Origin: Lineus longissimus
Taxonomy: Eukaryota; Nemertea; Pilidiophora; Heteronemertea; Lineidae
Assembly: GCF_910592395.1 (NCBI RefSeq)
Contig: NC_088317.1
Coordinates: 12,586,001 to 12,650,000, forward strand
Direction of reading: 5' to 3'
Length of the DNA stretch: 64,000 nucleotides
Within the stretch, counting starts at the first letter, position 1. Every line of letters starts with the position of its first letter. This document shows, one piece after another, positions 1 to 58,027 of the stretch. Both the position numbers and the translations under genes were made by a program. The notes beneath the pieces were generated by a model. The model was not told the DNA's origin. It saw nothing but the letters and a program-made list of their open reading frames with translations, and did not search any database.

Positions 1-449
1 CATTAGTTTGAAGATTGACCGAGAAGCTAAACAAGTGTATGAATACAGAGATAAATTAGAGGAGGTATTATTTCAACTCAATGATTACCATCACAAAATT
101 AGCATATCAGTATTTGCTCAGTTTGATCGTCAGGGTGAAAGTGTAACACACCCCATACAGTCTCCAATGGAAAGCATAATTTCAAGGAACCAGGCAATTT
201 ATGCCATAACCAACCAGTTAAACTACATTAAGACACAGATTGAGGAAAGGTACTTTCAAGGTTCTGGACTTACTTTAAATAAAATAGAGTCTTGTAACAT
301 GACCATCTGTTCTTACAAGAGGTGTAAAGGTGGTCATTACACTAAATTACCATTTAAAACAAAAGCAGTAATAAATGTGGAATCAAATGACAATAAATGT
401 TTTCTCTGGTCTTTATTGGCCGCTAAATATCTGAAAGAAAATCCAGAGA

Positions 450-478
450 CGGACTTTGTCCTGAGAGCAGAGCTCGAG
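450..478 (+). repeat. Double-hairpin repeat, copy 1 (in polB frame)
   Basis: GGAC-TTT-GTCC (451-461), 3-nt spacer TGA, then GAGC-AGA-GCTC (465-475). Both 4-bp stems are perfect. Translated inside the polymerase N-terminal part as DFVLRAELES. Confidence 0.85.
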
Positions 479-512
479 AGTACATTAAATATTACTACCG
501 ATATGCTAGAAA

Positions 513-540
513 TGACTTCGTCACGAGAACAGAGTTCGAA
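513..540 (+). repeat. Double-hairpin repeat, copy 2 (stem-covarying, in polB frame)
   Basis: TGAC-TTC-GTCA, spacer CGA, GAAC-AGA-GTTC. Relative to copy 1 one base pair in each stem is changed on both sides (G:C to T:A, and G:C to A:T), so pairing is kept although the sequence has drifted. Confidence 0.75.
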
Positions 541-844
541 AACTACTGATATCAAAATCAAATCATTTCCTGTATGTATTCAAAAGGATATTCCTAAGAT
601 AGAGAGTGATAATAATCTCAAAATTAATGTGTTTAAATTGCAGAATGAATCGGCTAAGAGCACCTGTGAGGCAAAACTAGAACCTCTCTACCTGTCCAAG
701 AATTATGATGATGATGATGTCATCGATCTGTTGTATTTCAAGGACCATTTCATGTACATAAGAGACATCAATCTTTTCTTCAGGACACTAGCTCATAGAG
801 TGTATCTTTGCAGGAGATGCATGAATTACTTTTACAGGAAGTAA

Positions 845-1573
845 ACACTAGATAAACATAAAAAGAAATGTGGAGAACACGATTACTGTAAGATTACTTT
901 GCCTCCACCTAACAGTAAATGGTCACAAATTAAATTTGAAAAACACTCATTCAAAAATAGAGTTCCGTTTGTGATCTATGCTGATTTCGAAGCGATAAGC
1001 ACAACAGTCAATGATAACTCGAGCTCTGCTCTCAGGACAAAGTCCGACACAACTCAGAGCAGAGCTCGAGTCGGACTTCGTCCTCAGACAGATACCACTG
1101 TTACCACTAAAAAACTTTTTAAACAAAATGCATCAGCTGTTGGTGTTTATGTTCACTCAGACTACACACACCTTTACAGTAGCCAGTATGTGTCTCACAG
1201 GGGTGCTGATGTTGTAGATGTGTTCTGTAATTGGTTAATCAGGATGGAAGAACAATTCTCTAATTTATTGAACTGTAACTTTCCTCTAACAATGACAGAT
1301 GAAGACTGGCATAAATATCAATTAGAAACACATTGTTACTATTGTAATCAACCTTTGGGATATGACAAGGTCAAGGATCATGATCACTACTGTGGTAGAT
1401 ATCGAGGTGCTGCTCACAACTCGTGTAATTTGAATGAAAAGAAAGCTATGTTTGTTCCAGTGTTTTTTCACAATCTCAGTAATTACGATTCTCACTTATT
1501 TATTAAAGAATTAATGAATAAGCTATCAGGAATCACGGTGAGTTCATTGACCTCTACCTCAAAACTGATGTGA
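845..1573 (+). pseudogene. polB: Polinton DNA polymerase B, exonuclease region
   Basis: In frame with the preceding part. It contains the ExoI motif (VIYADFEAI, about 976-1002), a Cys/His cluster (CYYCNQPLGYDKVKDHDHYC, about 1336-1395) of the kind inserted in Polinton polymerases, and the ExoII-like HNLSNYDSHLF stretch near 1470-1502. The frame then runs out at 1571-1573. Sequence resembling ExoIII (DLYLKTDVILLADLF) begins near 1545 in another frame directly afterwards. Family polymerases have roughly 100-150 residues between these motifs, so an internal deletion plus frameshift is inferred at about 1530-1545. A rearranged pair of double-hairpin repeats occupies 1018-1088 in frame. Confidence 0.82.
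1018..1088. repeat. Double-hairpin repeat, copies 3 and 4 (in polB frame)
   Basis: Copy 3 is inverted (1019-1047: GAGC-TCT-GCTC then GGAC-AAA-GTCC). It is followed by a rearranged copy with hairpins GAGC-AGA-GCTC (1057-1067) and GGAC-TTC-GTCC (1073-1083). All four stems are perfect. Together they add about 24 residues just after the ExoI motif without closing the frame. Confidence 0.85.
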
Positions 1574-3183
1574 TCCTTTTAGCTGATTTATTTGAGAAAT
1601 TCAGGGATGTCAATTTGAACTACTTTCAGATAGATCCATGTCACTGTTACTCGGCACCAGGCCTAACCTGGCAAGCTGGTTTGAAGTACACAGGAATAAA
1701 CCTAGAACTACTGACTGATACCAACATCTTACTTACTTTTGAGAAAGCAATACGAGGTGGAATTTCGGGTGTTATGGGAACAAGACATGTCAAGGCAGAT
1801 GAACACCACAAACTACTCTACGTAGACGCAAATAATCTCTACGGCTGGTCCATGATGGAACCTCAACCCTATGGTAGTTTTGAAATGATAGATATTGATC
1901 CACTCGAGCTATGCTCTCAGGACAAAGCTCGACTTAACATGAATGTTATCAGTAAAGAGCAGATTATGGCAATTCCAAGTGATAGTGAAGTAGGCTACTT
2001 CTTAGAGGTTGATTTGGAGTATCCAGGAAATATTAAATTTAAGTCGAGGAACTTTCCATTCTGTCCCGAATCTCTCTTTATTGAAGATGATGAATTAAGT
2101 CCTTACCAGAGAGAGTTACTGGGTGATGATAAAAGATCAAATGTAGAGAAACTAATACTAACACAAAAGGATAAAACTAATTACATAGTGCATTACAGAA
2201 TGCTACAATTTTACCTCAAGCACGGAATGGTACTTAAGAGGGTTCATTCAGTGATAAGCTTTAAACAATCAAAGTGGTTAGCACCATACATTGATTTTAA
2301 CACTAAAAGACGTATGGATTCTAAGACTGATTTTGAGAAAGACTATTTTAAGCTCATGAATAATGCGTTCTACGGAAAGACTTGTGAGAATGTAAGGAAC
2401 AGGGTTGAAATTGAATTTGTATCGGACGGGGAGAGAGCCAGGAATGTAATGGCCAATCCCAGGTTTTCATCGATATGCGTATTTGACGAACATAATGCTG
2501 CTATTAGCATGAGGAAAACATCAATGAAATTCAACAAACCAATCTACATAGGAGCTTCAGTACTTGAATTGTCTAAATTATTAATGTATGAATTCTATTA
2601 TGAAGTTCTTCAACCGTACTTTGGTGAGAAAAATATTGAACTACTGTATCTAGATACAGATTCCTTTGTACTTAACATTAATACTGATGACTTAACTAAA
2701 GACTTAAAGGAGTTGAGACACTATTTTGATTTCAGTAATTATCCAAAAGATCATCCACTCTATGATACCAGTAAGAAGAAGGTACCAGGCTACTTTAAGG
2801 ATGAGCTAGGAGGAGTAGAGATGACTGAATTCATTGCCCTGAGAAGTAAGATGTACGCTTACAGGACCAAGACTATGTCTGGAGAGCAAGGCTCGACAAA
2901 AGATTACGATTCTAAGAAATTAAAGGGTATTGCCAAGAATGTAGTAAGGAGAAATATCTCATTTGATGACTATGTTGATTGTCTTGAAAAGAGTAGGTCA
3001 TTTTACCACAAGATGAGACACTTAAGATCAGATAAACACCAAATCTATTTGGAAGAAGTTGACAAAAAAAGCCTCAGTCCTTTTGATGACAAGAGGTTCA
3101 TACTTGAAGATGGAATAAGCACCTTACCATTTGGAATGTATTATGAAGGCTACATAGATTACAGCGATTCAAACTTCGCTTGA
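1570..3183 (+). pseudogene. polB: Polinton DNA polymerase B, palm/fingers domain
   Basis: Open for 537 codons. Polymerase motif A reads DANNLYGWSM (about 1828-1857), motif B KLMNNAFYGK (about 2350-2380) and motif C YLDTDSF (about 2647-2668), so the catalytic aspartates of a protein-primed family B polymerase are present. The nominal start is artificial, since homologous sequence starts upstream in this frame at about 1540. The end at 3181-3183 looks natural and is followed at once by clustered hairpin repeats. With the stop at 842, the deletion and the frameshift upstream, the polymerase as a whole cannot be functional, though this domain alone looks undamaged. Confidence 0.85.
1904..1932 (-). 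repeat. Double-hairpin repeat, copy 5 (in polB frame)
   Basis: Inverted orientation. Hairpin GAGC-TAT-GCTC is intact; the second, GGAC-AAA-GCTC, is no longer complementary. It lies in frame in the polymerase palm domain between motifs A and B. Confidence 0.75.
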
Positions 3184-3184
3184 G

Positions 3185-3288
3185 TCGAGCTTTGCTCTCT
3201 GGACTTTGTCCTAGTCGGACTTTGTCCTGAGAGCAGAGCTCGAGTTGCAAAATCATTATTCGGACTTTGTCCTGAGAGCATAGCTCGA
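3185..3288. repeat. Cluster of double-hairpin repeats, copies 6-8
   Basis: Directly after the polymerase stop: 3185-3212 (GAGC-TTT-GCTC, TCT, GGAC-TTT-GTCC), 3215-3243 (GGAC-TTT-GTCC, TGA, GAGC-AGA-GCTC) and 3260-3288 (GGAC-TTT-GTCC, TGA, GAGC-ATA-GCTC). Copies lie in both orientations, some nearly back to back. Confidence 0.85.
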
Positions 3289-3405
3289 TTAAACTAATGA
3301 ATAGGGTGGTGCTGATGGTAGTGTTACTTGGTGAAATTCACCCCTAACACCAAAGTAATGATAATAGTGATAGTGATTCACCACATTAGGATTAGGACTA
3401 TTTAG
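3289..3405. other. Intergenic spacer between convergent genes
   Basis: Between the polymerase 3' end and the minus-strand membrane-protein gene. It holds a small hairpin (GGTGAAATTCACC, about 3340-3352) and no gene. Confidence 0.5.
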
Positions 3406-3493
3406 TCGAACTTTGTTCTCGGGACCTTGTCCTAGTCCGACTTCGTCTTGAGAGCATAGCTCGAGTCGAACTTTGTTCTCTGGACGTAGTCCG
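3406..3493. repeat. Cluster of double-hairpin repeats, copies 9-11
   Basis: 3406-3433 (GAAC-TTT-GTTC, TCG, GGAC-CTT-GTCC), 3436-3464 (GAC-TTC-GTC, then GAGC-ATA-GCTC) and 3466-3493 (GAAC-TTT-GTTC, TCT, GGAC-GTA-GTCC). GAAC/GTTC stems replace GAGC/GCTC as matched pairs, and loops vary freely. The cluster ends 14 bp before the stop of the 3507-4166 gene. Confidence 0.82.
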
Positions 3494-3506
3494 GGTCCTG
3501 TTTTAT

Positions 3507-4166
3507 TTACTGAACTTTTAGTTTTTCTAGCATCTCTGTCTGTGCTAGTTTTTTTCCTTCTTCTAAAAAAGTCTTCTTTAAAGACTCTACATCAACAGCT
3601 GAACTTGCCTCCCTTTGTTTTTTCCTAATGGCATTTTTCATCGAAATGTATTTCTCCTTCTCCTTGAGAATCAAAGTAAACTCATCTGTAGATATGTGAG
3701 AATTGGTTAAGGCTTTACTAACCAAATCATTGATTGTGTTCAGTTTTGAAATTGCCAACATTCTGATATTCTCATGCTTTTCAATTTTCCTTAGAATATT
3801 CTTTTTCTCCCAGCCTAAGGCTGATGAAATAATGGCACTACCTATTGTTACGCCACCCAAAGCTAAGCCTATCGGTGCCGTGATGACACCAGCTAGAGCG
3901 GAAACACCAACATAGCCAGCTGCAACGCTGGCAAAATTAAGGAAATGGCTAATGCCAGTAATTACGCTAAATGCTTTTTTGTACTTTGAAAATATCTTTC
4001 TTCTAAATTCAATCTCGCTTTCTAAGAAACTCTTAACATCACATATTTGTTGTAGTCTGAAAGCCTGAGGGTTACTTTCTGTATGCTTTTCAGACCTTTC
4101 ATAGTTTAAATGACTTTCAGAGTTTAAATTACTTAAATCTGGATAAACCTTGTTGTCTCCATCCAT
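3507..4166 (-). CDS. Polinton membrane-associated protein, function unknown
   Basis: 219 residues. The N-terminal third is polar. A charged stretch EIEFRRKIFSKYKKAF leads into a long hydrophobic, Gly/Ala-rich region (about residues 65-120, including VAAGYVGVSALAGVITAPIG), followed by a charged, probably helical C-terminal half. Proteins with this pattern (basic helix, then double hydrophobic segment) are common in Polintons and adintoviruses. They have been compared with membrane-active virion proteins, but no function is established. The start ATG lies in the shared TAATTAAATG context, 4 bp from the stop of the next minus-strand gene. Confidence 0.6.
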   Translation of the reverse strand: MDGDNKVYPDLSNLNSESHLNYERSEKHTESNPQAFRLQQICDVKSFLESEIEFRRKIFSKYKKAFSVITGISHFLNFASVAAGYVGVSALAGVITAPIGLALGGVTIGSAIISSALGWEKKNILRKIEKHENIRMLAISKLNTINDLVSKALTNSHISTDEFTLILKEKEKYISMKNAIRKKQREASSAVDVESLKKTFLEEGKKLAQTEMLEKLKVQ

Positions 4167-4170
4167 TTAA

Positions 4171-4422
4171 TTAGTGGGAAAAACTAGAATCAGTTGTTCT
4201 GTCATTTCTAGTGTTTAGTGTTGATCTTGCAGACACTACAGGTTTTTGTTGTACATTAAATTTTAAAGGTTTTTCTGACCCAACAGGCCCAGCAGGTTTT
4301 AAAGGTTTTTCGGGACCAGGCTCCAACTTTGACTCTACTTCTGCCTCTAATTCTCTATGAAATCGTTCTAATCTTTCTTTCCAATTACGTGGTCGTTTTG
4401 TGTAACCCCAAGTTCTATTCAT
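4171..4422 (-). CDS. Small basic/proline-rich Polinton protein, unknown
   Basis: 83 residues: basic N-terminus (RTWGYTKRPRNWKERLERF), acidic helix, Pro/Lys-rich middle (EPGPEKPLKPAGPVG) and a Ser/Thr-rich tail. No domain recognised. The start is in the TTAATTAAATG context shared by neighbouring genes, and spacing to both neighbours is under 20 bp, which supports it as a real gene despite its size. Confidence 0.5.
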   Translation of the reverse strand: MNRTWGYTKRPRNWKERLERFHRELEAEVESKLEPGPEKPLKPAGPVGSEKPLKFNVQQKPVVSARSTLNTRNDRTTDSSFSH

Positions 4423-4441
4423 TTAATTAAGTAAAATAAAA

Positions 4442-5614
4442 TCAATTCACTGCAAAGAGTAAATTTCTTTCAAGTCTATTATTCAACTTAATCATCTCGT
4501 TTATGATTTCTGTCTGACTACATATGTTAATGTTCTGGTTCATTCTCATGTTATTATTTAAATTCGATAATCTATCAAGCAGAATCATATTTTCATCACG
4601 AAGATAATCCCCGAAATGCTGTGATATCACTATTTTCCAATCTGGTATTACATCCTGATCTCGAAAGACAAACCAGTTTTCACTTCTCATTTTTACCATG
4701 AAATCCATTGACCTATCCAATTGATCCTTAAATAGTGTGTAGTCTACTTTAGCACTCTTCTGTCTGTTTTCTGTCTTTTCAATTGGTCTCATGTTAAACC
4801 AAGCAAAGCACAGTTCAGGTTTATCTTTGAATTCCTTGATTGGTAAGACATGATCCAACTCTTCTTCTACTATTCGAACTCTGTTCTCGGGACTTTGTCC
4901 TATTGGAGATAGACTCCTCTGGTACTCTAACCACTGTGAGAAGAAACTGTCTGTACATCCTAGATTGAATGATGAATTACCGGTCGGACTTCGTCCTGAG
5001 AGCAGAGCTCGATTACACTCTCCCTTAGAAATGCGGTTTAGACCAACTCTAATTTTGTGTCTGTCTCTATAACCATTTTGGTCAAGGTAATCATTTTTGT
5101 AATATGAATTAAAACATGATCTGCAGTTACCTCTATTTCCGTTTTTACCAAATTCACCATCACTTAGTAATTTAATTTCATAACATTTATTACATCCCTT
5201 GATTTTACTTGAACCACATTCTTTACAGTAATCAAGTAGTTTATTACGCCTGTTCTTTTCAAAATTAATTTCAGGTTTCTTTTCACAGCACTTAACACAA
5301 TAAATTGTAGGTTGATTTTCCATGTTTTGATTCATCATATTATTCTGATTTATCATATTTTGATTTTCCATGTTTTGATTTTCCATGTTTTGATTTAACA
5401 TAATCTGATTTAAGATAAACTGATTTATCATATTTTGATTTAACATAATCTGATTTATCAGATTTTGATTTAACATATTATTTTGATGCAAATAATACAA
5501 AAACTTCTGAATATTCTGATTCATCATATTATCATGATTCATCATATTATTCTGATTCATCATACCATTTTGATTCATCATACCATTTTGATTATCAAAT
5601 ATTGCTCCATCCAT
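4442..5614 (-). CDS. HNH-type nuclease-like protein with Asn/Met/Gln repeat N-terminus
   Basis: 390 residues. Residues 8-100 are a low-complexity run of NQNM-type repeats. Residues 106-167 hold four CxxC or CxxxC pairs (CVKC, CKEC, CNKC, CRSC), as in zinc-ribbon HNH proteins. An HNH-like core follows: DHVLPI (His 255), Asn 274, Asn 283 and Lys 286. A homing-type or virion-associated endonuclease is the likely role, though not proven. Two double-hairpin repeats sit in frame between the zinc cluster and the HNH core (residues about 200-212 and 238-249). This start lacks the TAAATG motif and reads AAAGAAATGG. Confidence 0.62.
   Translation of the reverse strand: MDGAIFDNQNGMMNQNGMMNQNNMMNHDNMMNQNIQKFLYYLHQNNMLNQNLINQIMLNQNMINQFILNQIMLNQNMENQNMENQNMINQNNMMNQNMENQPTIYCVKCCEKKPEINFEKNRRNKLLDYCKECGSSKIKGCNKCYEIKLLSDGEFGKNGNRGNCRSCFNSYYKNDYLDQNGYRDRHKIRVGLNRISKGECNRALLSGRSPTGNSSFNLGCTDSFFSQWLEYQRSLSPIGQSPENRVRIVEEELDHVLPIKEFKDKPELCFAWFNMRPIEKTENRQKSAKVDYTLFKDQLDRSMDFMVKMRSENWFVFRDQDVIPDWKIVISQHFGDYLRDENMILLDRLSNLNNNMRMNQNINICSQTEIINEMIKLNNRLERNLLFAVN
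4874..4901 (-). repeat. Double-hairpin repeat, copy 12 (in HNH gene)
   Basis: GAAC-TCT-GTTC, spacer TCG, GGAC-TTT-GTCC. Both stems perfect. Translated in frame just before the HNH core. Confidence 0.8.
4984..5012 (+). repeat. Double-hairpin repeat, copy 13 (in HNH gene)
   Basis: GGAC-TTC-GTCC, spacer TGA, GAGC-AGA-GCTC. Both stems perfect. Translated as part of ALLSGRSPT on the minus strand. Confidence 0.85.
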
Positions 5615-5659
5615 TTCTTTCTTTATTTAGTAGGACACTTTTTTTTTAAATTACGTTTT

Positions 5660-5687
5660 TCGAACTTGTTCTTGTGACTTAAGTCAC
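5660..5687 (-). repeat. Double-hairpin repeat, copy 14 (divergent, intergenic)
   Basis: GAAC-TT-GTTC, spacer TTG, then TGAC-TTAA-GTCA. The sequence is divergent but both hairpins are kept. It lies between the HNH gene start and the integrase gene end. Confidence 0.6.
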
Positions 5688-5702
5688 TTTAGAGACTTTA
5701 TT

Positions 5703-5812
5703 TCATTTCAATGATTTGATATCAGAAACTGGTAACCATTCATTGAACTTATCACTGTAACCCTTCCACTTCACTAATCCGTATTTCTTGCCTTTACTGG
5801 TCTTGTACCTGG
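5703..5812 (-). pseudogene. Chromodomain-like tail of the Polinton integrase, out of frame
   Basis: A second minus-strand frame overlaps the end of the integrase frame and continues to a stop at 5703-5705. It encodes a chromodomain-like stretch (VKWKGYSDKFNEWLPVSDI). Polinton integrases usually end in a chromodomain, so a single-base frameshift near 5795-5812 has separated this tail from the catalytic part. Confidence 0.65.
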
Positions 5813-6822
5813 ATTTTCTCGATCTTGTACTCTAGCTGGTCAGGATTAGGAACATAGCTCAATTCCTCTTCATAGAAATATCCTTGAATTTCTTCTTTGT
5901 GGTAATCCTCAAGCTGGTAGACGATAGGGTGAGTAAAGATGATCTGTTTGATTTGGAACACCTCCTCAGTGTAGTTGGGCATGTAACCTTTACCGAAAAT
6001 GGACTTGTACTTTGAAATTCTTACACTGTCACCTACTTTGTACTTTGGATCACCAAATGTCTCTTTGAGGTGAAGACCGTAAAGATTGTACCACACTGTT
6101 CCTTCGTTTTCCATCTTTCTGGCGTATACAGGTTTCATACCTATTGATGAGTGAAATGTGTTATTGTAGCCGCTGACCAGGTCATCCAGAACGTCAATCC
6201 ACTTGTCAGTCTCCTTAGCGGTGAAATAACGCCACATTTTTTCTTTAAGGGTTCTATTGAATCTCTCTACTACTGCTGCCTTCTTATCAGATTTTGTGGA
6301 GAACCATTCTATGTCATTTTCTGTTAAGAGTTCCTTGAAGTGTTTGTTGTAAAATTCTTTACCGTCATCAAACTGGATTTTCGTTGGTTTTGCTTCCTCA
6401 AATATCACTTTAAATGCATCTCTGATTTCTTCTCCCCTCTTACTCTTAACTGCTAGAGCCCAAGAAAAACGACTAAATAGATCTATGACTGTTAAAATGA
6501 ATCTGAAACCCTTATTCTGTTTCTCAAATTTTTGCATGTCCACCAGATCTGCTTGCCATTGTTGATCGATGTACGATACCATTGTCTTCCTGAAGGTGAA
6601 TTTCTTAATGGCCGGTTTGTGTAGTTGGTGAGTTGGTAGTGTTTCTAGAAATTCTTTCACTTCTTTTTGTTTAATAAGTTTTCCTGAGCTCTTCTCTCGT
6701 GACGAAGTCATATCTTCCTTGACCTGTTTCCAGATTTTACTCAAAGAACTGTAAGCCACGGGACTCTCGGGGTTGTAGTACAAATCCCTTAGATACTGCT
6801 GTGTGTCATCCTTTACATCCAT
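5794..6822 (-). CDS. Polinton retroviral-type integrase (DDE), chromodomain tail lost by frameshift
   Basis: 342 residues. The DDE core shows Asp 92 (QADLVDM), Asp 152 (QFDDGKEF) and Glu 186 (VVERFNRTLK), as in rve-type integrases that insert Polintons with a 6-bp target duplication. An SH3-like C-terminal region follows (KYKVGDSVRISKY). The chromodomain expected at the C-terminus lies in another frame at 5703-5812. A damaged double-hairpin repeat (6686-6710) is translated near residues 38-46. The start codon is 4 bp from the divergent ATPase start, the two sharing one palindrome. Confidence 0.9.
   Translation of the reverse strand: MDVKDDTQQYLRDLYYNPESPVAYSSLSKIWKQVKEDMTSSREKSSGKLIKQKEVKEFLETLPTHQLHKPAIKKFTFRKTMVSYIDQQWQADLVDMQKFEKQNKGFRFILTVIDLFSRFSWALAVKSKRGEEIRDAFKVIFEEAKPTKIQFDDGKEFYNKHFKELLTENDIEWFSTKSDKKAAVVERFNRTLKEKMWRYFTAKETDKWIDVLDDLVSGYNNTFHSSIGMKPVYARKMENEGTVWYNLYGLHLKETFGDPKYKVGDSVRISKYKSIFGKGYMPNYTEEVFQIKQIIFTHPIVYQLEDYHKEEIQGYFYEEELSYVPNPDQLEYKIEKIQVQDQ
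6686..6710 (-). repeat. Double-hairpin repeat, copy 15 (in integrase gene)
   Basis: The second hairpin, TGAC-GAA-GTCA, is intact; the first (GAGC-TCT-TCTC) has lost pairing. It is the closest relative of copy 2. Translated as TSSREKSS. Confidence 0.6.
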
Positions 6823-6829
6823 TTAAATG
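6820..6829. promoter_or_regulatory. Shared palindromic start region of integrase and ATPase (CATTTAAATG)
   Basis: A perfect 10-bp palindrome contains both divergent start codons (CAT 6820-6822 and ATG 6827-6829). The TAAATG motif recurs at the minus-strand starts 4166, 4422, 7902, 8692 and 8986, mostly as AATTAAATG; 5614 and 10321 lack it. This is reminiscent of the TAAATG late-promoter initiator of poxviruses. Function here is inferred. Confidence 0.5.
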
Positions 6830-7447
6830 AGTGAAGTATTTATTTACGAGCCACACAATATGTTAATTTCTGGTGTTACCAATTGTGGTAAGACATATTC
6901 TGCCCTTGACCTCTTAGAAAAGGAGTATCGGCACAAGTTCCAGAACATAGTCATTTTCTGTCCAACATATTTCAACAATAAGACATATGAAAGGAAATGG
7001 ATTTACCAAGACAAGAACGTCTACATAGTTAATCCCGAAGCTGTGGCCAGTAATTTGGACCTTGTGCTTCAGTTTGCTACTCTGACCTTTGCTGGTTCTA
7101 ACACATTATTCCTCATTAATGACTGTGCTAATTTGAGAGACACAAAAAAGAAGGTGTCCGAGTTATGTAATCTTGCCTTTTCCGGCAGGCACTACAATCT
7201 CACTGTTTGGTTACTAGTTCAGAAGTACAATTCAGTTGTTAAGGACTACAGAGAGAACATAAGAATTTTAGTCCTGTTCTTTAATAAGGATGAATCAGCC
7301 ATGAAAGATGCCTTAGAAGAAAACAGTGTTATTCCTAAGGAGAAAAGACAGTACTACATAGAAGAACTTAAGATGAAAAAAGGATCAAAACTGATCATTA
7401 GACTACAACATCCATTTGGATTTACTCTTTCCCATCAAAAATCTTAG
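6827..7447 (+). CDS. Polinton genome-packaging ATPase (FtsK/HerA type)
   Basis: 206 residues, typical for the Polinton A32-like ATPase that pumps DNA into capsids. Walker A is GVTNCGKT (residues 16-23). The Walker B region reads LFLINDCANL (about residue 93 onward), with Asn-Asp in place of the usual acidic pair. A sensor-like NKDESAMKDALEE stretch lies near residue 150-165. The frame is undamaged. It is the only plus-strand gene among the virion genes, starting 4 bp from the divergent integrase and overlapping the convergent gene at 7444 by 4 bp. Confidence 0.88.
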   Translation: MSEVFIYEPHNMLISGVTNCGKTYSALDLLEKEYRHKFQNIVIFCPTYFNNKTYERKWIYQDKNVYIVNPEAVASNLDLVLQFATLTFAGSNTLFLINDCANLRDTKKKVSELCNLAFSGRHYNLTVWLLVQKYNSVVKDYRENIRILVLFFNKDESAMKDALEENSVIPKEKRQYYIEELKMKKGSKLIIRLQHPFGFTLSHQKS

Positions 7448-7902
7448 TCCCGCTTCTCATCAATGGTCTTAGTCTTTCTAACCCTAGTAAAATAATAAAT
7501 TAATAATCCTAAACCACTAAGTCCTAGGATAATCCATAGGTACTCGTATTTCTTCATTTCATCACTAGGTTGGTAGTAATCACTTAATTGTGGTCGCTGA
7601 GGTAGTACAATAGTTCTTTCTGGATGTAAATGATTGTAAACAGTAAGTGCTGAATCAGTATTGTTAAAATCAATAGAAGCGTCTCTTTCTCTCTTTAATT
7701 CAAGATTAACAAAGTCAATAGTACTCTTTCTATGCTCCTCCCATTCTGTGGAGGCCTTCTGTAATTGCTCCTGAGCCAAATCATGTCTTTTCACTTCAGT
7801 CTCATAGCCATTCTTGTCTAGTTTTTTAAAAAGGTAACCGGATCCAGTGAATGCTAATCCATTGATTATTGCAGATCCAAATAACATACCAATGCCAGCC
7901 AT
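7444..7902 (-). CDS. Polinton two-membrane-segment protein, unknown
   Basis: 152 residues. A Gly-rich hydrophobic N-terminus (MAGIGMLFGSAIINGLAF) is followed by a charged coiled-coil-like middle (EEHRKSTIDFVNLELKRERD), a LSDYYQPSDEMKKYEY linker and a C-terminal membrane segment (YLWIILGLSGLGLLIYYF). This layout recurs beside capsid genes in Polintons. A virion or membrane role is likely but unproven. The 3' end overlaps the ATPase 3' end by 4 bp. The start is in AATTAAATG context, about 20 bp from the next gene. Confidence 0.6.
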   Translation of the reverse strand: MAGIGMLFGSAIINGLAFTGSGYLFKKLDKNGYETEVKRHDLAQEQLQKASTEWEEHRKSTIDFVNLELKRERDASIDFNNTDSALTVYNHLHPERTIVLPQRPQLSDYYQPSDEMKKYEYLWIILGLSGLGLLIYYFTRVRKTKTIDEKRD

Positions 7903-7924
7903 TTAATTTCAACGAATTTTAATT

Positions 7925-8692
7925 TCAATGATGTGTCCCTGAGAGCATAGCTCGAGTTAATACCAATTGGTACTGTACATTATGACCATTAAGATCGATG
8001 ATGTCACCTTTTTCATCAGTTAAGCGAATATTCAGCTTATTGAATCTTGGTTTACAGGGAATTGCTATTGGTTTCTCAAATGTGTATGCTATTAAATCTC
8101 CAAAATTAGCTTCCTTTATTGGTCTTGTGGTTAGCACATCAGATGCTTCACCATTACTTAATACACTATTAGATTCGATTATGTCACAGTGAAAAACAAA
8201 ATGGTTAATTGGTCTAAAATTGATGGGTTTCTCGCTTACAACATCATCCTTACTTTTATTGTCTAAAGGGTAAGGCCATTCTGATTTCATGCCAAATAAT
8301 TCATTACTTTTACCAATAAAATAGATCTGATAATGCGCCTCATTTTTTCTCTTTAGGAAGTGTAAGATGGCCTTACCTGTTGGTTCTTCAAGGTCAAATC
8401 TGACAGCACCTCTACTCATACTATTTTCTTTCAACTTATCCGCAAATACTTTTGAAAAGCTCTGTAGGTCATAGAGACCATCTGGTAGCGTAATCTCTGC
8501 CACATCAAACCCCTTAACTTTGATTCGGTTATTCTCCCTGGCTGCACTTATGTTGTAGAATGTACAAGGTATTACTGCAAAAGTTAAAGTGATGCTACAT
8601 GCATCTTGAATTTCAGTCTTGAGATTGACTGTTAAATCACTTGAACTCTGATCTGGATAGTCACTTGAATCTATGTTCATTACAGTAACCAT
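7925..8692 (-). CDS. Polinton minor capsid protein (penton-like, single jelly roll)
   Basis: 255 residues, upstream partner of the major capsid gene on the same strand. The beta-rich sequence (SDLTVNLKTEIQDACSITL near the N-terminus, ITLPDGLYDLQSF, NKLNIRLTDEKGDIIDLNG near the C-terminus) and its place between membrane proteins and major capsid fit the Polinton minor capsid, which forms the vertices. The frame is intact. The last residues (AMLSGTHH) come from a half copy of the double-hairpin repeat, so that repeat supplied the present C-terminus. The start is in AAGTAAATG context. Confidence 0.8.
   Translation of the reverse strand: MVTVMNIDSSDYPDQSSSDLTVNLKTEIQDACSITLTFAVIPCTFYNISAARENNRIKVKGFDVAEITLPDGLYDLQSFSKVFADKLKENSMSRGAVRFDLEEPTGKAILHFLKRKNEAHYQIYFIGKSNELFGMKSEWPYPLDNKSKDDVVSEKPINFRPINHFVFHCDIIESNSVLSNGEASDVLTTRPIKEANFGDLIAYTFEKPIAIPCKPRFNKLNIRLTDEKGDIIDLNGHNVQYQLVLTRAMLSGTHH
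7935..7955 (+). repeat. Double-hairpin repeat, half copy 16 (capsid gene 3' end)
   Basis: GTCC then CTGA and hairpin GAGC-ATA-GCTC. The GGAC arm is missing. It lies at the 3' end of the minor-capsid gene. Confidence 0.65.
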
Positions 8693-9064: not shown

Positions 9065-10321
9065 TCAGTGTTGGAGTGAAGCAATCTGAGAATTCTGAAT
9101 GTTAACCTGGGCATCAGAAACCACGAATATGTGCATTTTGTATGGTCCCTTTCCAGATCTCTTTGTAATAGATAATTGAATACCATCTTTTGTGTTCTGG
9201 AGCTTCTTTCCTGATCCGTGTAGACGATTATCTTCAGAAGTTCTCAGGTCCAACCATAAACCATAGTGATTAGAATCACCATAGTATTTCTCCATGGTCA
9301 TGTTACAGTCATGAGTTTTCTTCAAATCTTCAGACATAAAATGTTTCTTGATCTCCTCCCATTGATCCATCATTCTCATTCCTTCTGGGAACACCTGATT
9401 GGCAACACCCTCTATTGTGATCTGCACTTTACTTATGTTAGGGTTTTCAAACTTCTCTGAATCTCTAGCTCCATCTACATAGTCAGACACAAATAGTAAT
9501 AATAATCCTTTAATAGACATTCTTGGAAAGTTGATGTTCTCATTAATTAGTGTTTCATTAGCAGTAACATTGACTGTCTTAAAATGGTCTACCCAATCAT
9601 AAAATATTGAGAATCCAGAGTTGTACTTGTTACTCAATTGACTAGCAATCATTTTGTTGGCTACGGTATCATATTCAAAACAAATATTCTCTAGTTTGTA
9701 GCCCATGCTAGCTGTGGTTGTGGTGACTATGATTTCCTCCTTTGGTGCTAAAGTTATTTCAATAATCACATCTTCTTGAATTGGAAACTTGTAAAATGGA
9801 GCATGATGATGGAATAGTTCAAAATCTAATGGTATTTTGTACTTCTTGTCAAACACTTTCTTTAAAGTCTTTTCATTAGCTGTTTCTCCAGTGACATCAG
9901 CTTCAGCGACTCCTGATCTTAATTCTCTAAGATTTTTTGACTGAATACCCTGAAAAACTCTATCATTTCTTTCTTCTTCTGTAAACCACAGATCTCTAAA
10001 TGTAGAATAATGACTGTATTCGTCAAGGTCAAATATCTGCTCTGTTCCCCACTTAACCACCATCTTTGAAATCAGGTTTCTACCAAGATTATTTACAACA
10101 CTATTTTTAGAATCACCAGAAATGGTTACATCAGCAGACAGATAAAGAGATTTAGGTACAAAGAATGTATTCTCTCGCAATGCCGGTATTCTAACATACA
10201 GTGTTTCTTTGGGGTTAGCAGATGAGGGGTTATGAGTAATGATATGATGCTGCCTCTCAGCTTTTAAACCAAGTGGAATCTTATGTGCCCTTTCGGTATT
10301 TAATAAATATCCTGTTGCCAT
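9065..10321 (-). CDS. Polinton major capsid protein (double jelly roll)
   Basis: 418 residues, the size and composition expected for the Polinton double-jelly-roll capsid protein related to adenovirus hexon and virophage capsids. Recognisable stretches are TEQIFDLDEYSHYSTFRDLW near residues 90-115 and IPLDFELFHHHAPFYKFPIQ near 170-190 (end of the first jelly roll), plus LWLDLRTSEDNRLHGSGKKL near the C-terminus. The frame has no breaks. It reads toward the minor capsid gene on the same strand. The start context is TAGAAAATGG, without the TAAATG motif. Confidence 0.88.
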   Translation of the reverse strand: MATGYLLNTERAHKIPLGLKAERQHHIITHNPSSANPKETLYVRIPALRENTFFVPKSLYLSADVTISGDSKNSVVNNLGRNLISKMVVKWGTEQIFDLDEYSHYSTFRDLWFTEEERNDRVFQGIQSKNLRELRSGVAEADVTGETANEKTLKKVFDKKYKIPLDFELFHHHAPFYKFPIQEDVIIEITLAPKEEIIVTTTTASMGYKLENICFEYDTVANKMIASQLSNKYNSGFSIFYDWVDHFKTVNVTANETLINENINFPRMSIKGLLLLFVSDYVDGARDSEKFENPNISKVQITIEGVANQVFPEGMRMMDQWEEIKKHFMSEDLKKTHDCNMTMEKYYGDSNHYGLWLDLRTSEDNRLHGSGKKLQNTKDGIQLSITKRSGKGPYKMHIFVVSDAQVNIQNSQIASLQH

Positions 10322-10773
10322 TTTCTATTTATTTACTAGTAAAATTATGTTACATTTTCCAGGCAAAATAAAGGCCTCTAAAAACCACTTGGTTCCACAG
10401 TAAATAGAAATACTACAGGTGGCGCCACATGGTGTCAAACTGGTACATCATTCCCCTTACTACACAGATAAACCACCGCATCTAATCCCTTTAAGCAGAA
10501 TTACATGTATCTTTGACTACCGGTAGTTCAAAAATTCCCGCCCATGACGTCATCACCTAGCTCATGAAGAACTGAACCAGGGCACACCAGGGTACATGTG
10601 AATGGACACAGTCGTCGTCAACTAGGGCCTACCAGTGGTTGTCTGCAAGATGAATGAAGATTTCAGTTACGCACAACCCATTGAACTCTAGTATTCCCTC
10701 ACCATTTCATTGACCATTTCATTGCAACGCTTCACTGGGAATCTCATGAATGAATCATTTCATTGAAGAATGA
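10322..10773. other. Non-coding stretch at the Polinton right flank
   Basis: No gene seen. Contains the palindrome GTGGCGCCAC near 10420-10429 and a CRE-like TGACGTCA near 10545. The Polinton right terminus must lie here but could not be fixed without its left end. Confidence 0.4.
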
Positions 10774-10905
10774 TAGAATATATGTATTGTGGTGGATTGG
10801 TTCTTTGGGGTTGTAGGCTAATTTGGGGCAAAAGCCCTGTAAGGGCTTTGGTCAAAATAGCTTAGAAATACCTACATTCCTACCACCACAATACATATAT
10901 TCTAT
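10774..10905. repeat. Short inverted-repeat (fold-back) element
   Basis: Perfect 23-bp inverted arms (10774-10796 and 10883-10905, beginning ATAGAATATATG) enclose about 86 bp that itself holds a hairpin (AAAGCCC...GGGCTTT, 10831-10849). No clear target duplication. Looks like a very short MITE. Confidence 0.65.
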
Positions 10906-47440: not shown

Positions 47441-48620
47441 CTACTCTGAATGACATCTTCAAAGACCGTACTTCAGTATGCGGTAGGTGTATTCTGGTTG
47501 GATGTGACATTGTCTCAAGTAAACCATCATTCTGAATTACATACCATATGCAGCTGCAGTATTTTGGTTAGAAGTGACATCATATCGTACATGTAGGTAA
47601 ACCCAACTCTTCTGAATGACATTTTCAGAGTCATTATTTCCATACGATCAGGCGTATTCAGGTTGGATGTGACATTGTGTCGAAAGTAAACCGACCATTC
47701 TGGATGACGTCTTCAGAGACGGTATTTCCATATGATCAGGCGTATTCAGGATGAATGAGACATTGTGTCGAAAGTAAACCGACCATTCTGGATGACGTCT
47801 TCAGAGACGGTATTTCCATATGATCAGGCGTATTCAGGTTGGATGTGACATTGTGTCGAAAGTAAACCGACCATTCTGGATGACGTCTTCAGAGACGGTA
47901 TTTCCATATGATCAGGCGTATTCAGGTTGGATGTGACATTGTGTCGAAAGTAATCCGACCATTCTGGATGACGTCTTCAGAGACGGTATTTCCATACGAT
48001 CAGGCGTATTCAGGTTGAATGTGACATTGTGTCGAAAGTAAACCGACCATTCTGGATGACGTCTTCAGAGACGGTATCTCCATACGATCAGGCGTATTCA
48101 GGTTGAATGAGACATTGTGTCGAAAGTAAACCGACCATTCTGGATGACGTCTTCAGAGACGGTATTTCCATACGGTCCGGCGTATTCAGGTTGAATGTGA
48201 CATTGTGTCGAAAGTAAACCGACCATTCTGGATGACGTCTTCAGAGACGGTATTTCCATATGATCAGACGTATTCAGGTGGGATGTGACATTGTGTCGAA
48301 AGTAAACCGACCATGCTTGATAATGTCTTCAGAGACGGTATTTCCATACGATCAGGCGTATTCAGGTTGAATGTGACATTGTGTCGTATAAAGTAAACCG
48401 ACCATGCTGGATAATGTCTTCAGAGACGGTATTTCCATACGTTCGGCGTATTCAGGTGGGATGTGACATTTTTTTAAGCATTTTCAATGACATCTTGTGT
48501 ATATTCTGGGTGGGTGTGACAAATCCTTAAGTAACCCAAACATTCTGAATGATGTCTTCAAAGGCAGTATTTCCGTATGTGGCAGGTGTATTCTTGTTGG
48601 ACGTGACGTTGTCTAAGTAA
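47440..48620. repeat. Tandem array with 88-bp unit
   Basis: TGGATGACGTCTTCAGAGAC recurs at exactly 88-bp steps (47701, 47789, 47877, 47965, 48053, 48141, 48229), then in diverged copies near 48317 and 48408. More divergent copies extend to both edges. Core copies are over 95 percent alike by eye. 88 is not a multiple of 3 and the array is not coding. Confidence 0.92.
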
Positions 48621-54331: not shown

Positions 54332-54894
54332 TACGGAAGCGGTACGGAAGCGTATTAGTGCCAACAAAAAAAAATTAAAAACTATCTCATACGTACGACT
54401 AATTAAGTCGTTCGTTCGAGTTAGTATCGCATTCGTTCGACTTTCTATCTCATTCGTTCGACTTTCTATCTCATTCGTTTGAGTTAGTATCTCATACATA
54501 TGAGATAATAACTCATACGTACGACTTATCATCGCATACGTACGACTTATTATATCATACGTATGAGATATTATCTCATACGTATGAGTTATTATCTCAT
54601 ACGTATGACTTATCATCTATGAGTTATTATCTCATACGTACGACTTATCATCTCATACGTACGACTTATTATCTCATACGTATAAGATAGTATCTCATAC
54701 GTATGAGTTATTATCTCAATATGTACGACTTATTATCTCATACGTACGACTTATTATCTCATACGTACGACTTATTATCTCATACGTATGAGTTATTATC
54801 TTATACGTATGAGTTATTATCTCATACGTACGACTTATTATCTCATACGTATGAGTTATTATCTCATACGTATGAGTTATTATCTCATACGTAG
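54332..54894 (+). repeat. Left terminal inverted repeat, 21-bp tandem units
   Basis: The outer tip TACGGAAGCGG is present twice. After an A-rich spacer come divergent units (CATTCGTTCGACTTTCTAT), then regular units such as TTATTATCTCATACGTACGAC. 21 bp is seven codons, so all frames without stops give heptad-like peptides (SHTYDLL, THTYEII); these are not taken as real proteins. Confidence 0.9.
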
Positions 54895-57344: not shown

Positions 57345-58027
57345 GGTACGTATGAGATAACAAGTCGTACGTATGAGATAACAAGTAGTACGTGTGAGAT
57401 AACAAGTCGTACGAATGAGATAACAAGTTGTACGTATGAGATAATAATTAAGTCGTACGTATAAGATGATAAGTCGTACGTATAAGATAATAAGTCGTAC
57501 GTCTGAGATAATAAGTCGTACGTATGAGATAACAAGTCGTACGTATGAGATAATAAGTCGTACGTATGAGATAATAAGTCGTACGTATGAGATAATAAGT
57601 CGTACGTATGAGATAATAAGTCGTACATATTGAGATAATAACTCATACGTATGAGATACTATCTTATACGTATGAGATAATAAGTCGTACGTATGAGATG
57701 ATAAGTCGTACGTATGAGATATTATCTCATACGTATGAGATAATAACTCATAGATGATAAGTCATACGTATGAGATAATAACTCATACGTATGAGATAAT
57801 ATCTCATACGTATGAGATAATAAGTCGTACGTATGCGATGATAAGTCGTACGTATGAGTTATTATCTCATATGTATGAGATACTAACTCAAACGAATGAG
57901 ATAGAAAGTCGAACGAATGAGATAGAAAGTCGAACGAATGCGATACTAACTCGAACGAACGACTTAATTAGTCGTACGTATGAGATAGTTTTTAATTTTT
58001 TTTTGTTGGCACTAATACGCTTCCGTA
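57345..58027 (-). repeat. Right terminal inverted repeat, 21-bp tandem units
   Basis: Mirror image of 54332-54894, with more regular units (AGTCGTACGTATGAGATAAT). The outer 200 bp match the left arm unit for unit; copy number differs in the inner part. Ends GCTTCCGTA before CTTTTC. Confidence 0.9.

Follow-up and report, generated by a model that had tools for sequence, protein, structure and literature searches.

A 27-bp unit of two adjacent small hairpins is repeated within a Polinton, a virus-like transposon, in the nuclear genome of the nemertean Lineus longissimus. We analysed 64,000 nucleotides of contig NC_088317.1 (assembly GCF_910592395.1, positions 12,586,001 to 12,650,000; the window), and the results below concern this one window and the one element within it. 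The double-hairpin repeat is real, and it is sharper than in the preliminary description made from the same DNA. Wherever it could be measured, each copy accounts for 30 bp, and the unit is probably a non-autonomous mobile element whose insertion into short ANT-like targets duplicates them. Repeated flanks, a constant net length, arrays whose members share ANT triplets, and absence of copies from relatives all argue for insertion with a short staggered cut.

The copies are as follows; ORF stands for open reading frame, a closed frame is the one in which the consensus unit has a stop codon, and P numbers denote homologous proteins.

449 to 477 (core 450-476), plus strand: unit 1, flanks AGA/AGA; N-terminal PolB ORF, phase 1; 10 more residues than P0123
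511 to 539, plus strand: unit 2, flanks GAA/AAA; N-terminal PolB ORF, phase 0 (closed frame); spacer CGA for TGA; 10 more residues than P0123
1019 to 1047, minus strand: unit 3, flanks ACT/ACA; middle PolB ORF
1056 to 1085, plus strand: rearranged copy, two half-units tail to tail about AGT with the hairpin order swapped; middle PolB ORF
1904 to 1932, minus strand: unit 4, flanks ACT/ACT; C-terminal PolB ORF; 10 more residues than P0009 and P0002
2868 to 2896, plus strand: unit 5, flanks ACC/ACA; C-terminal PolB ORF, phase 0 (closed frame); spacer GGA; 10 more residues than 8/12 homologs
3185 to 3213, minus strand: unit 6, left half inverted, flanks AGT/AGT; array 1; outside ORFs of at least 100 aa
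3215 to 3243, plus strand: unit 7, flanks AGT/AGT; array 1, exactly 30 bp from unit 6
3260 to 3288, plus strand: unit 8, flanks ATT/ATT; outside ORFs of at least 100 aa
3406 to 3434, minus strand: unit 9, left half inverted, flanks AGT/AGT; array 2
3436 to 3464, plus strand: unit 10, flanks AGT/AGT; array 2, 30-bp period
3466 to 3494, minus strand: unit 11, flanks AGT/GGT; array 2, 30-bp period
4874 to 4902, minus strand: unit 12, left half inverted, flanks ATT/ATT; in ORF 4442-5614 (minus strand)
4984 to 5012, plus strand: unit 13, flanks GGT/ATT; in ORF 4442-5614 (minus strand)
5658 to 5690, minus strand: decayed candidate copy (covariance model E 0.015)
6684 to 6712, minus strand: unit 14, flanks TCC/ATC; integrase ORF, closed frame; spacer CGA
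7934 to 7957, plus strand: half copy, one hairpin and a remnant (E 3.3e-4); end of ORF 7925-8692

With up to three mismatches allowed, the pattern GGACNNNGTCCNNNGAGCNNNGCTC gave 13 matches, all between 451 and 6710, compared to a mean of 0.16 and a maximum of 1 in shuffled sequence. A wider pattern, TMGRACNNNGTYCNNNGARCNNNGYTCGA (again ≤3 mismatches), gave 17 rows at 13 places (shuffle mean 0.01), four of these places being read on both strands and the unit at 6684 going unmatched. Exact double hairpins with 4-bp stems, 3-nt loops and spacers of 2–4 nt numbered 11 in the first 9 kb (shuffle mean 0.77, maximum 4). The shuffled controls that the preliminary description had named are thus nowhere near the observed counts, and chance can be ruled out as the origin of the repeat. 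Under the same exact rule, the rest of the window contains 12 double hairpins that differ in sequence from the unit, with a single tandem array accounting for five; a looser rule (loops 3–4, spacers 0–6) finds 59 there (mean 27.6 and maximum 42 in 20 shuffles). Because generic double hairpins exceed shuffles elsewhere too, it is the common sequence and exact spacing that mark the region, not double hairpins per se. No known RNA family was found in the window at gathering scores.

We then built a covariance model from the 14 complete copies. It returned 18 rows at E < 0.1, all within 447-7957. Besides the 14 copies used for training, these comprise the half copy at 7934-7957, the region of the rearranged copy (1041-1071), the decayed candidate at 5658-5690, and 1902-1934 read on the opposite strand. 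In the remaining 56 kb of the window no match reached E < 0.1 (best E = 0.43), in line with the initial statement that no copies were seen outside this region. At least 15 copies and one half had been counted at first; the present count is 14 complete copies, one rearranged copy (1056-1085), one half copy and one decayed candidate.

The 14 copies share a structure of two 4-bp stems with 3-nt loops, in which 97.3% of stem cells are paired, compared to 13–39% in slid controls. The cores are GC-rich (0.48–0.63) within DNA of 33–37% GC. Matched changes occur at 2/8 stem pairs, as had been proposed, while the other six lack covariation and three pairs are invariant; in total 7/112 cells are changed on both sides. 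Both this two-sided cell count and the covariation score were reached by 0/500 shuffles. The loops, thought at first to vary freely, are far more constrained: loop 1 is TTY in 9/14 copies, AAR in 3/14 and TAY in 2/14, and loop 2 is ANA in 13/14. One long hairpin was rejected as the common structure (65.9% of cells paired, covariation not above shuffles); taken by itself, copy 1904 (29-nt segment) does fold this way. In a terminal-inverted-repeat comparison, the arms of consensus copies match inverted at only 8/13 positions.

To define the unit boundaries, we looked for identical 3-mers on both sides of cores of 11–59 nt (49 lengths) at 9 offsets. Exact 3-mer flanks peaked at a 27-nt core with offset 0 (8/14 copies, 4/9 isolated copies), against a chance rate of 3.5% per site. 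Flanking 2-mers peaked at a 28-nt core (10/14 copies, 6/9 isolated; no chance rate was computed). Under either reading, core and flank duplication together make a net 30 bp. The triplets that are identical on both sides are AGT, ACT, ATT and AGA. In the arrays at 3185/3215 and 3406/3436/3466, the second of which was also recovered by a tandem-repeat search, units alternate in orientation with a period of exactly 30 bp. Hence the net gain is 30 bp wherever it could be measured, namely in the array spacing and at four sites compared with relatives.

These four sites came from protein alignments of the PolB gene, for which we used 13 of 120 listed homologs (7169 found) of the C-terminal ORF and 8/10 of the N-terminal ORF. 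Homologs not spanning a site were dropped, and the integrase copy at 6684 lay outside the comparison. Four PolB copies correspond to exact 10-residue inserts relative to close relatives, and these are the four of eight coding sites that could be aligned with a close relative. At each of sites 449 and 511, P0123, which has 94% identity over the alignment, is shorter by exactly 10 residues. At 1904, exactly 10 residues fewer are present in P0009 (95% identical in the alignment) and in P0002. At 2868, 8/12 homologs (P0002 and seven others) are shorter by 10 residues, three by 9 and one by 3. Insert length at 1019/1056 is not decisive, as the stretch is variable, and for ORF 4442-5614 the single homolog, P0121 (40% identical), has gaps of 6 and 8 residues near the two copies, which are not exact. 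Peptides of the consensus unit were absent from the 131 proteins retrieved. The relatives P0002, P0009, P0122 and P0123 are pieces of Polinton polymerase listed under Bartonella draft assemblies, on contigs of 635–1402 bases. They are likely foreign there, coming from contaminating animal DNA; the isolate label QHWL occurs in two papers, which deal with Bartonella grown in culture from Chinese small mammals.

The consensus unit is open in 5/6 reading frames, the sole stop being the TGA spacer in one frame. Insertion into genes would be tolerated, since a net gain divisible by three leaves the frame intact and five frames are open. The three copies that lie in the closed frame (511, 2868 and 6684) carry CGA, GGA and CGA at the spacer, respectively. 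TGA is thus found in 0/3 closed-frame copies, compared to 7/11 others (Fisher 0.19). Among copies with the usual left half only, the others have TGA in 7/7 cases (Fisher 0.008), or 7/8 with 3466 included (0.024), a grouping made post hoc; among coding copies only, the figure is 4/5 (Fisher 0.14). These counts hint, and no more, that the ribosome translates the inserts, leaving selection to filter them, and does not bypass them.

How might the unit move? Each copy would arise by copying and insertion during Polinton replication. The enzyme would have to act in trans, because the unit is too short to encode one, and it probably recognises the paired hairpins. The candidate machinery is the carrier's own set of replication and recombination enzymes, proposed because copies are seen only there and because the PolB gene has an Endonuclease VII domain. 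Protein-primed polymerases of the PolB family carry out strand-displacement synthesis, which would expose the hairpins as single strands, and Endonuclease VII cuts branched DNA.

Several points weigh against insertion as a mobile element. Six of the 14 copies have imperfect 3-mer flanks, those at 511, 1019, 2868 and 3466 matching at 2/3 positions and those at 4984 and 6684 at 1/3. Four of the eight perfect matches are non-independent, because the array units have AGT in common. The grid of core lengths was set after the data had been seen, although this is offset by the protein comparison, which independently gives 30. The empty sites are known at the protein level only. Sites 449 and 511 are closely aligned by P0123 only, five more distant homologs also being shorter by 10 residues but with poor anchors, and at 1904 ten more distant homologs range from –7 to –16, the stretch being variable. 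Covariation is limited to two pairs: the number of covarying pairs was reached by 157/500 shuffles and the pair types by 427/500. Single-strand folding is not unusually stable in 3/6 segments tested (z of –0.71, –0.80 and 0.44). The loss of TGA is statistically weak, and copies 511 and 6684, which have variant stems in common, may not be independent. Finally, a role for Endonuclease VII in mobilising the unit is conjecture.

The main rival explanation does without a transposase-like step: displaced single strands would undergo template switching or gene conversion, and ANT would be a microhomology that travels with a 30-bp module. Rearrangements within the units bear on this. The left 13 nt are inverted in the copies at 3185, 3406 and 4874, which match the inverse sequence at 11–12/13 positions and the direct sequence at 8. 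Copy 1904 looks partly converted by the arm of the other hairpin, and copy 1056-1085 consists of two halves tail to tail around AGT. Such half-unit inversions, which we also count in favour of a mobile element, the rearranged dimer and the apparent conversion are what template switching might leave, and AGT and ATT do recur as flanks. However, ACT and AGA are found as well, each identical on both sides (ACT being AGT on the other strand), and insertion reactions are the more usual source of an exact 27+3 structure at unrelated sites. We regard template switching as unlikely, though it is the alternative to be taken most seriously. Merger and shuffling of units have been described for yeast GC clusters in passages of PMC4478555.

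It could also be that the unit is a host-wide dispersed repeat, such as a very short miniature inverted-repeat transposable element (MITE) or fragments, that has entered the Polinton among other places. Our view is limited to one window, which leaves room for this idea, but within it there are 0 copies at E < 0.1 in the other 56 kb compared to 14 in 7.5 kb. We extended the search to contig collections, which may omit records close to the window's genome. Neither collection scanned, of genome or of viral contigs, yielded a second cluster of units. In the genome contig collection, a pattern scan gave 9 stretches with one match each. In the viral contig collection, the strict pattern gave 20 stretches with one match each, and a pattern allowing GAAC stems gave none. 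On a rough estimate, we take such single matches to be chance. The covariance model scored the 29 collection loci at ≤18 bits, versus 37–52 for the 14 copies. On the counts within the window, a host-wide repeat seems doubtful.

Among the viral contigs, a single-protein query found no related Polintons and an alignment query found two (L030 and L031). Neither has a similar repeat family among its 20 largest direct-repeat families (of 48 and 34, respectively). Generic double hairpins number 26 in L030 (shuffle maximum 25; partly a tandem repeat near its end) and 28 in L031 (maximum 38). A hairpin repeat of a different kind occurs in L030, a Polinton-like viral contig, where six hairpin-bearing tandem repeats with 41–43 nt spacing lie at 4834-5079.

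The preliminary description left two readings open: a structure-dependent selfish sequence, or stems that work for the element. The former is supported and strengthened by the repeated flanks, the 30-bp arrays and the empty sites in close relatives. The latter would make the units cis-acting Polinton signals for packaging, replication or transcript ends. The stems are maintained, and six units, five of them in the two arrays, lie between ORFs ending at 3183 and 3507, as such signals might. It is nonetheless a poor fit, and very improbable, given that the eight units within ORFs of at least 100 aa occupy all three phases (0, 1 and 2) and either orientation, that four are missing in close relatives, and that no comparable family is present among the repeats listed for the two related contigs. 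Hardly any weight goes to the idea that ribosomes bypass the unit during translation, as they do the GC clusters in Magnusiomyces mitochondrial genes: hairpins do lie inside genes and bypassing of such inserts is known (passages of PMC6649704 and PMC8811140), but the net gain is divisible by three and all three stop-frame copies lack the in-frame TGA, which hints at translation (at the Fisher value of 0.19 given above).

With insertion as a mobile element still preferred, our best reading is that the unit would work like the mitochondrial GC clusters of yeast, here in a nuclear Polinton. Passages of PMC4478555, PMC4464245 and PMC8811140 describe those clusters (M classes, GC42) as GC-rich palindromes, tens of bases long, in AT-rich DNA, with flank duplications of AG, ACT or TAG, that form tandem arrays and can insert in frame into VAR1/rps3. 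The Polinton unit is likewise GC-rich and palindromic, with a 2–3 bp flank duplication (imperfect in 6/14 copies at 3 bp and 4/14 at 2 bp), and varies in presence between relatives (at the protein level, for 4/8 coding sites). It differs in lying in a nuclear virus-like transposon rather than a mitochondrial genome and in its fixed two-hairpin 27-nt core and constant 30-bp gain, the two being compared by description, not sequence.

Other known systems share parts of this picture. The double-hairpin elements of Allomyces mitochondria consist of two adjacent small hairpins. Like these, which together with the related sponge RHEs are dispersed and thought to be mobile, the unit has two tandem stem-loops with paired changes, albeit at two pairs only. 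The Allomyces elements are reported, in the passages concerned of PMC2800124, to lack flank duplications, whereas most Polinton units have them. Rickettsia palindromic elements (RPE) likewise lie within protein genes without disrupting the frame; according to passages of PMC10969869, they are about 150 bp long and each have an ORF for a conserved peptide. In contrast to these bacterial elements, the Polinton unit has a 27-nt core, adds 30 bp net and is read in all phases. We assign it as a member of none of these three groups (GC clusters, double-hairpin elements or RPE). It resembles MITEs in its target duplication, imperfect in 6/14 copies. Submariner, which has long terminal inverted repeats and TA targets, is similar as a non-autonomous element, one multiplying in a eukaryotic viral genome, and differs from the Polinton unit, which is 27 nt long. 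Submariner is a MITE of a DNA virus, Pandoravirus, as stated in passages of PMC5799277. In open-licence literature on Polinton palindromic repeats or hairpins and on nuclear double-hairpin elements, nothing alike was found among the matches listed (titles and abstract openings).

More tentatively, and with the odds against it, Polintons may host transposons of their own. These 27-bp double-hairpin elements would rank with the smallest that duplicate their target, would be restricted to Polinton DNA, would rely for movement on the Polinton's enzymes for replication and for cutting branched DNA, and would succeed in genes thanks to the net gain of exactly 30 bases. If so, GC-cluster-like elements would be a general parasite of DNA copied via long single strands, not a mitochondrial oddity. 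How mitochondrial hairpin elements move is unsettled, and a counterpart in a virus-like transposon would leave only a few visible genes as possible machinery and bring the question within reach of testing; a passage of the 2015 study of GC42 (PMC4478555) states that the movement of GC clusters still needs further experimental evidence. The unit would also be a eukaryotic, non-organellar parallel to the palindromic inserts in bacterial proteins.

Its gene content (PolB, rve, Pox_A32) makes the carrier a Polinton, in agreement with the initial identification. Such elements typically have long terminal inverted repeats and a 5–6 bp target duplication; here the Polinton-like element is already under way at the window start, with its left end outside the window. 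Its recognisable genes are:

2 to 3183, plus strand: PolB gene, now three ORFs (2-844, 899-1573 and 1570-3183)
5794 to 6822, minus strand: integrase (rve), Pfam domain
6827 to 7447, plus strand: packaging ATPase (Pox_A32), Pfam domain
9065 to 10321, minus strand: likely major capsid protein (Capsid_N, E 0.0019, below the family cut-off)

The window's own ORF 1570-3183 gave no Pfam match, and PolB was identified via relatives, several of which have the polymerase domain PF03175. The Endonuclease VII domain is a Pfam match in the middle ORF (899-1573). The ORF at 4442-5614 has a long N-terminus rich in Asn, Met and Gln, encoded by 15- and 18-bp tandem repeats at 5312-5597. Just past the likely capsid gene lies a perfect 23-bp inverted repeat (10773-10795 and 10883-10905), with 87 nt between the arms.

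Elsewhere the window contains DDE_Tnp_4, reverse-transcriptase/integrase, Tc1-like and tyrosine-recombinase retroelement genes; judging by domain content, we label the retroelements as putative Ty3 and DIRS. An 88-bp tandem array of 9.8 copies at 47610-48470 has a unit with its own pair of 4-bp hairpins, in sequence unlike the double-hairpin unit of the Polinton. A 21-bp near-palindromic unit (TATCTCATACGTATGAG...) forms two long arrays, at 54382-54893 and 57346-57987, with the listed consensus on opposite strands; they lie near the DIRS-like element (RVT, Phage_integrase and Dam matches, 58.5–61 kb).

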